Below, piece after piece: positions 39,866 to 44,166 of a stretch of DNA of 64,000 nt. The notes beneath the pieces were generated by a model. The model did no database searches. It was not told where the DNA came from and saw nothing but the letters and a program-made list of their open reading frames with translations. Each line of letters starts with the position of its first letter. Position 1 is the first letter of the stretch. The position numbers and the translations under genes were made by a program. Where the stretch lies: assembly GCA_903862425.1 (NCBI GenBank), contig CAIOYC010000002.1, positions 62,001 through 126,000 of the forward strand, written 5' to 3'. This DNA is from an uncultured Caulobacterales bacterium (GTDB lineage Bacteria > Pseudomonadota > Alphaproteobacteria > Caulobacterales > Caulobacteraceae).

Positions 39866-39869
<4 letters not shown>
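38649..39869 (+). CDS. FAD-dependent monooxygenase (UbiH/PHBH-like)
   Basis: A 406-residue class A flavoprotein monooxygenase. The Rossmann motif [21 protein letters not shown] is at residues 9-29, the DG motif is [12 protein letters not shown] and the GD motif is [21 protein letters not shown]. Relatives hydroxylate aromatic or isoprenoid-quinone substrates using NAD(P)H and oxygen. Its stop overlaps the stop of the convergent dnaE gene. Substrate is unknown; the thioesterase upstream suggests a small catabolic or biosynthetic unit. Confidence 0.88.
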
Positions 39870-43297
<3,428 letters not shown>

Positions 43298-43329
43298 CGC
43301 GCCGCCTTTCACTCCACCTCAGCGAATCG

Positions 43330-43419
43330 TCAGCCCACCATTTGAGCCGCCATCGCGACCATCCAGACCAGACCGCCGACGGACGCAAGCGCCATACCAT
43401 CTCTCATCAATCGGAACAT
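43330..43419 (-). CDS. sidA: SidA-like 29-residue inner-membrane peptide (SOS division inhibitor candidate)
   Basis: A 30-codon frame giving a 29-residue peptide: a short basic N-terminus (MFRLMRDGM) and one membrane helix (ALASVGGLVWMVAMAAQMVG). A purine/G-rich ribosome site (GGGGTG) precedes the ATG. Upstream are a good sigma70 promoter and two LexA-type boxes (43434-43481). In Caulobacter, SidA is a 29-residue, SOS-induced inner-membrane inhibitor of division that acts on FtsW. Length, topology and LexA-type control all agree; placement beside dnaE also fits my recollection of the Caulobacter locus, which I could not check. Sequence identity to known SidA was not testable here. Confidence 0.7.
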   Translation of the reverse strand: MFRLMRDGMALASVGGLVWMVAMAAQMVG

Positions 43420-43433
43420 CGCCGCACCCCGCT

Positions 43434-43481
43434 GTTTCGCATTTGTTCTTCTATTTATATTCTCCTTTTGTTCTTCGTCAA
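43434..43481 (-). promoter_or_regulatory. Promoter with two LexA-type boxes ahead of the sidA-like gene
   Basis: On the minus strand, -35 TTGACG (43481-43476) and -10 TATAAA (43459-43454) are 16 bases apart. The alphaproteobacterial LexA site is GAAC-N7-GAAC. One near match, GAAC-AAAAGGA-GAAT (43473-43459), fills the promoter spacer; a second, GAAC-AAATGCG-AAAC (43448-43434), covers the expected start of transcription. Each fits seven of eight positions. The element GAAGAACAAA also occurs twice, 25 bases apart. Such placement would block RNA polymerase until DNA damage. Confidence 0.65.
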
Positions 43482-43602
43482 GCAGCCATTTCGAGGGGCA
43501 CCAACACGCGGGGCATTGTCGAAATCCCCAATACGGCGCAGGTTGAGGTGCATCCGCGTCGTAGCAAACACGCGTAGCTGAACGCATCCCAGGAAACGCT
43601 CC

Positions 43603-44166
43603 ATGAAACGCCTTCTTCTCGGCTTCGTCGCCGCCAGCCTGATAGCCGCCCCCGCCTTTGCGGCGCTGGAAAAGGGCGCCAAGGCCCCTGACTTCACCCT
43701 GCCGGCCGCGCTGGCGGGCAAGGACTTTACCTACGACCTGGCCTCGGCGCTGAAAAAGGGCCCGGCGGTGGTCTATTTCTACCCTAAGGCCTTCACCTCG
43801 GGCTGCTCGGCCGAGGCGCACGAATTCGCCGAGAACATGGATAACTTCAAGGCTTTAGGGGCCAGCGTCATCGGCGTCTCGGGTGACGACATCGCGGCGC
43901 TGGAGAAGTTCTCTACCGCCAGCTGCGGCTCAAAGTTCCCGGTGGCCGCCGATCCCAAGGGCGAGGTGATCGCCAAGTATGACGTGAAGATGGACAACCC
44001 GGTCGCGAAGACCATGCTGAAGCTGGACCACCCGTCCAACCGCACCTCGTTCCTCGTGGCGCCGGACGGTACGGTGCTGGCGACCTACTCGGCCCTCGAC
44101 GCCTCCAAGCACGTCTCCACCATGCTCGACGCCCTGAAGGCCTGGCGCGAGACCCATAAGGCCTAG
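43603..44166 (+). CDS. Periplasmic peroxiredoxin (AhpC/TSA, BCP-like)
   Basis: A 187-residue thioredoxin-fold peroxidase with a clear signal peptide (LLLGFVAASLIAAPAFA, cleavage before ALEKGAKAPDF). The peroxidatic cysteine is Cys68 in PKAFTSGCSAEAHEF, matching PxxxTxxC with Pro61 and Thr65. A possible resolving cysteine is in TASCGSKFPVAAD. It would reduce hydrogen peroxide or organic peroxides in the periplasm. It is divergent from sidA-dnaE and is closed by a strong terminator. Confidence 0.9.
   Translation: MKRLLLGFVAASLIAAPAFAALEKGAKAPDFTLPAALAGKDFTYDLASALKKGPAVVYFYPKAFTSGCSAEAHEFAENMDNFKALGASVIGVSGDDIAALEKFSTASCGSKFPVAADPKGEVIAKYDVKMDNPVAKTMLKLDHPSNRTSFLVAPDGTVLATYSALDASKHVSTMLDALKAWRETHKA

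Follow-up and report, generated by a model that had tools for sequence, protein, structure and literature searches.

A sidA gene behind a predicted LexA-controlled promoter lies directly upstream of dnaE in a Caulobacterales genome, with likely relatives in other alphaproteobacterial families

The minus strand of the window (the whole 64-kb stretch of DNA analysed) carries a very short gene between a promoter and dnaE. The features of this locus, in the direction of transcription, are as follows.

43476..43481, minus: -35 element TTGACG, read from the sequence; TTGN stands here, just 5' of box 1, in 83/89 relatives with paired boxes
43459..43473, minus: predicted LexA box 1, GAACAAAAGGAGAAT, a 7/8 match within the promoter spacer
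43454..43459, minus: -10 element TATAAA, read from the sequence
43434..43448, minus: predicted LexA box 2, GAACAAATGCGAAAC, a 7/8 match over the expected start point
43330..43419, minus: sidA, 29 aa, MFRLMRDGMALASVGGLVWMVAMAAQMVG, with one membrane helix and a match to NF033228
43298..43329, minus: gap of 32 nt from the sidA stop to the dnaE ATG, without a terminator-like site
39866..43297, minus: dnaE, DNA polymerase III alpha subunit, identified by Pfam, with its ATG at 43297

The sequence, read directly, places the sidA ATG at 43419-43417 and its TGA stop at 43332-43330. The best 19-residue hydropathy of the 29-residue peptide is 1.74, as expected of a single membrane helix. NCBIfam model NF033228 ("cell division inhibitor SidA"), a curated equivalog model with a cut-off of 35 bits, matched the peptide across residues 1-29 of 29 at 35.7 bits, a score that exceeds the cut-off by little. 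Since this model assigns the peptide to SidA, the window gene is, by its sequence, a true orthologue of Caulobacter SidA and an expected member of a known family. The first-pass annotation had proposed a SidA-like 29-residue one-helix gene just before dnaE, and this was borne out; its expectation that the frame escapes most automatic annotation held only in part, as NCBI already has a SidA model. When both strands of the 64-kb window were scanned for a LexA box followed by a one-helix ORF of 26-36 aa, sidA was the sole site. Residue 17 of the peptide is L, as in its closest relative (G028), where the family norm is F.

Downstream, dnaE begins 32 bases past the sidA stop, as the same annotation had described, with an alternative in-frame GTG start at 43312. 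A peroxiredoxin gene (AhpC/TSA, Redoxin; 43603-44166) is divergently oriented and shares its intergenic region with the sidA promoter.

The promoter was likewise found exactly as first described, TTGACG and TATAAA being separated by 16 nt, with one 7/8 LexA box in the spacer and the other over the start point. A strict promoter scan found no sidA promoter because the scan requires T at the sixth -10 position. Across the window, 7/8 matches to the LexA motif occurred at chance density (36 found versus 38.5 expected), so that a lone 7/8 match is at chance level; it is position and conservation that make the two predicted boxes credible. A perfect box, GAACACTTACAGAAC, lies ahead of the start codon of lexA in this genome, which suggests that the GAAC-N7-GAAC motif probably belongs to this organism's LexA. 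The LexA box has been described as GTTC-N7-GTTC (PMC12700426).

We searched for the window peptide in 99 Caulobacteraceae genomes and obtained a match at E<=1 in 82. Locating dnaE independently of sidA allowed the DNA 5' of dnaE to be read in 94 genomes, and a SidA-like frame of 28-31 aa, in most cases exactly 29 aa, lay directly 5' of dnaE at 91/94 of these loci. In the remaining three genomes (G016, G017 and G031; loci L105, L063 and L047) dnaE had neither an upstream SidA nor LexA boxes, and the whole module has apparently been lost, promoter boxes included. Adjacency to dnaE is thus the rule for sidA in the Caulobacteraceae. The gap between the two genes is short in most relatives, but some genus g3 members have one of about 250-320 nt and still retain the peptide. 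Second SidA-like sequences were also seen: a 37-aa copy, MTRLIRETLAFAAAATFVWAVCVGALVVGDLFRSLPA, lies away from dnaE at L221 2573-2686 (G022:C3), and G131 has a second SidA match too.

Both the frame and its control region are conserved. Neither a stop nor a frameshift was seen in the relatives' frames, one of the checks that had been proposed for this locus; another, the presence of LexA boxes at this place, gave a family-wide result, since the best box had at most one mismatch in 91/91 relatives, compared with 14% of dinucleotide shuffles. A perfect box was present in 56/91 (versus 0.7% of shuffles) and a single mismatch in the other 35, whereas both boxes of the window are imperfect. Paired boxes 15-26 nt apart were found in 89/91 relatives, and in 57 of these 89 box 1 ends in GAAT, an ending that fits the -10 element because its T begins the -10. 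Among close pairs, the sidA frame had a pN of 0.044 against a pS of 0.267 (pN/pS 0.17), while pN exceeded pS in the other two frames of the region. NF033228 matched 47/49 Caulobacteraceae members at E<=0.01, and the helix core SV-x-x-FVWM is kept within the family.

To relate the window gene to the Caulobacter crescentus system, we used genomes whose ChpT is near-identical to the solved C. crescentus ChpT. In two of these (G139 and G076, each identical at 224/225 residues) SidA precedes dnaE, although for G139 the SidA match alone was read; this arrangement agrees with the assignments of sidA as CCNA_02004 (PMC11034885) and dnaE as CC1926 (PMC1839093). C. crescentus SidA, the primary SOS division inhibitor, is a 29-aa inner-membrane protein that contacts FtsW; it is under LexA control, also contacts FtsN and blocks division, and it has been modelled as keeping the FtsW/FtsI/FtsN complex inactive (PMC4211646). 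The window gene resembles it in its 29 residues, single helix, LexA-type promoter, position directly 5' of dnaE, seen also in genomes of the C. vibrioides group, and agreement with NF033228. It differs in sequence, sharing about 45% identity with the SidA of G095 (a genome whose ChpT agrees with C. crescentus ChpT at 218/225 residues), and in its box spacing of 25 nt, where 16-18 is commoner in the family. The published FtsW suppressor positions of SidA, A31/F145/A246 (PMC4211646), could not be placed on the FtsW sequences retrieved. Another small membrane division inhibitor of Caulobacter acting on the FtsW/FtsI/FtsN complex, DidA, is set apart by its description as a 71-aa, SOS-independent protein that binds FtsN (PMC4211646). 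YneA, ChiZ, SosA, DivS and SulA are also SOS-induced division inhibitors (PMC4211646, PMC13396833) but, by published description, unrelated genes (PMC4211646).

Outside the Caulobacteraceae, profile A1 found no convincing SidA in 249 genomes of the order. The view suggested by this profile, that SidA is confined to the Caulobacteraceae, was contradicted by the gene order before dnaE: in other families within the order, GAAC-N7-GAAC boxes precede one-helix frames of 27-31 aa, with dnaE next. In these families, and in some more distant ones elsewhere in the class, the module consists of a LexA box, a one-helix peptide of 27-47 aa and dnaE. A detector that required a box and, 15-90 nt further on, a helix-containing frame of 26-36 aa was positive at 28/40 loci of families f2-f5 and at 8/40 loci across the class; the rate in shuffled controls was about 0.1% or less, and 0/80 loci were positive on the opposite strand. 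In family f2, which belongs to this order too, the four loci read lacked a frame of this kind. The frames of the order (L198-L203, L207, L209-L213 and L264-L281), such as MRRVVQDVSAATAVLGFAWMIAMWGSVLGAA and MENETLRDVVGLGVLLTVIGAAQFWGALLGA, are 27-31 aa long and match no curated family, and at distant loci of the class (L284-L292, L314-L328 and L331) peptides such as MTNFLKDFLALSSVVGVLWAVTVWSAIVGSALT and MDWVKDAAGLAALVGLWGAFAAWAEIIGSVVGS lie between a GAAC-N7-GAAC box and dnaE.

A wider profile that included peptides from outside the Caulobacteraceae was then used to search 389 genomes from the class. Most of these genomes gave no match to it; 28 matches fell below E 0.0013, and 26 of them had dnaE downstream on the same strand, within 0.4 kb in 25 and at 0.84 kb in G741. 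Thirteen matches came from genomes outside the order that had not contributed to the profile (families f12, f64, f95, f98 and f132), several of them close kin of profile members and f132 a new family; all 13 loci had dnaE downstream and a box upstream, perfect in 12. A member of f64 (G429) had been found beside dnaE in the round before any f64 peptide entered the profile. For the outer peptides, pN/pS was 0.13 within the order and 0.10 for the class. Compared with the SidA profile by hhalign they gave 96.3% and a score of 37.8, against at most 22.9% and 16.7 for 60 column permutations and 1.4% for the reversed control. NF033228 matched 0/31 peptides from outside the Caulobacteraceae at E<=1. 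What the outer peptides share with SidA is a core of an acidic residue near position 7 followed by a helix rich in small residues, often with W. We consider it quite likely from these comparisons that the outer peptides are homologous to SidA, and they may share its function. Three further loci (L227, L255 and L263, in G461, G399 and G420) have perfect LexA boxes and small one-helix frames before dnaE that fall outside the SidA profile; these are possibly more diverged members or replacements.

We propose, with a probability of roughly 0.92, that the window gene is a LexA-controlled division inhibitor, sidA, heading a sidA-dnaE transcription unit. This reading is built on what was observed here: the gene with its promoter and boxes, its membership of the family, purifying selection and a conserved gene order. 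It is very unlikely that this is a SidA-type peptide whose role has changed, such as to that of a general SOS membrane peptide with some other target: the C-terminal half does differ widely among peptides outside the Caulobacteraceae, but within the family the SV-x-x-FVWM core is kept and the curated equivalog model applies. Slightly less likely still is a role as a leader peptide, in which translation of the frame would regulate dnaE by attenuation or coupling with no inhibition of division. The frame's place 32 nt 5' of dnaE, and the shortness of the gap in most relatives, would suit such a leader, but RNA folding showed no unusual fold (z 0.75), a search of the 32-nt gap for a terminator-like site found none, and what is conserved is the amino-acid sequence; moreover, the peptide persists across the long gaps of genus g3, and the G022 copy lies away from dnaE. 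That the frame is a product of chance, the true gene being a longer ORF or there being no gene, can be dismissed almost entirely: reading is indeed open 5' of the ATG (ORF 43330-43821, 163 codons) and single 7/8 boxes are at chance density, but 91 relatives keep a frame of 28-31 aa that begins at the equivalent ATG, immediately behind the promoter and boxes, the NF033228 match spans all 29 residues, and pN/pS is low.

Under the preferred reading of a LexA-controlled division inhibitor, LexA bound to two direct-repeat boxes bracketing the -10 element would block RNA polymerase. RecA filaments formed on damaged DNA would promote LexA cleavage, opening the sidA promoter. The 29-residue peptide would then enter the inner membrane and hold the FtsW/FtsI/FtsN septal wall-synthesis complex inactive, so that constriction would be delayed until repair. 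Applying the published SidA mechanism to the window gene is well supported because of orthology, and the same division-inhibitor activity is to be expected in this organism. Transcription would probably continue into dnaE, raising the replicative polymerase alongside the division block; the short gap and its lack of a terminator-like site suggest such joint SOS induction, of which our literature search found no measurement, nor any published statement that dnaE is SOS-induced.

Taken more widely, SidA probably represents an ancient SOS checkpoint of the alphaproteobacteria, in which a one-helix septal inhibitor and dnaE form a LexA-controlled operon that several families far apart in the class have kept, unseen by present annotation. 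The recurrence of the sidA module in other alphaproteobacterial families is mostly unrecognised so far; annotation would miss the outer members because little beyond length, helix, promoter and gene order is well conserved in them. This bears on which protein halts division after DNA damage in alphaproteobacteria beyond Caulobacter. For families without such a named gene, the module offers a candidate division-inhibitor gene at a constant position, and it suggests that one predicted LexA promoter may drive both the arrest of division and the provision of replicative polymerase.
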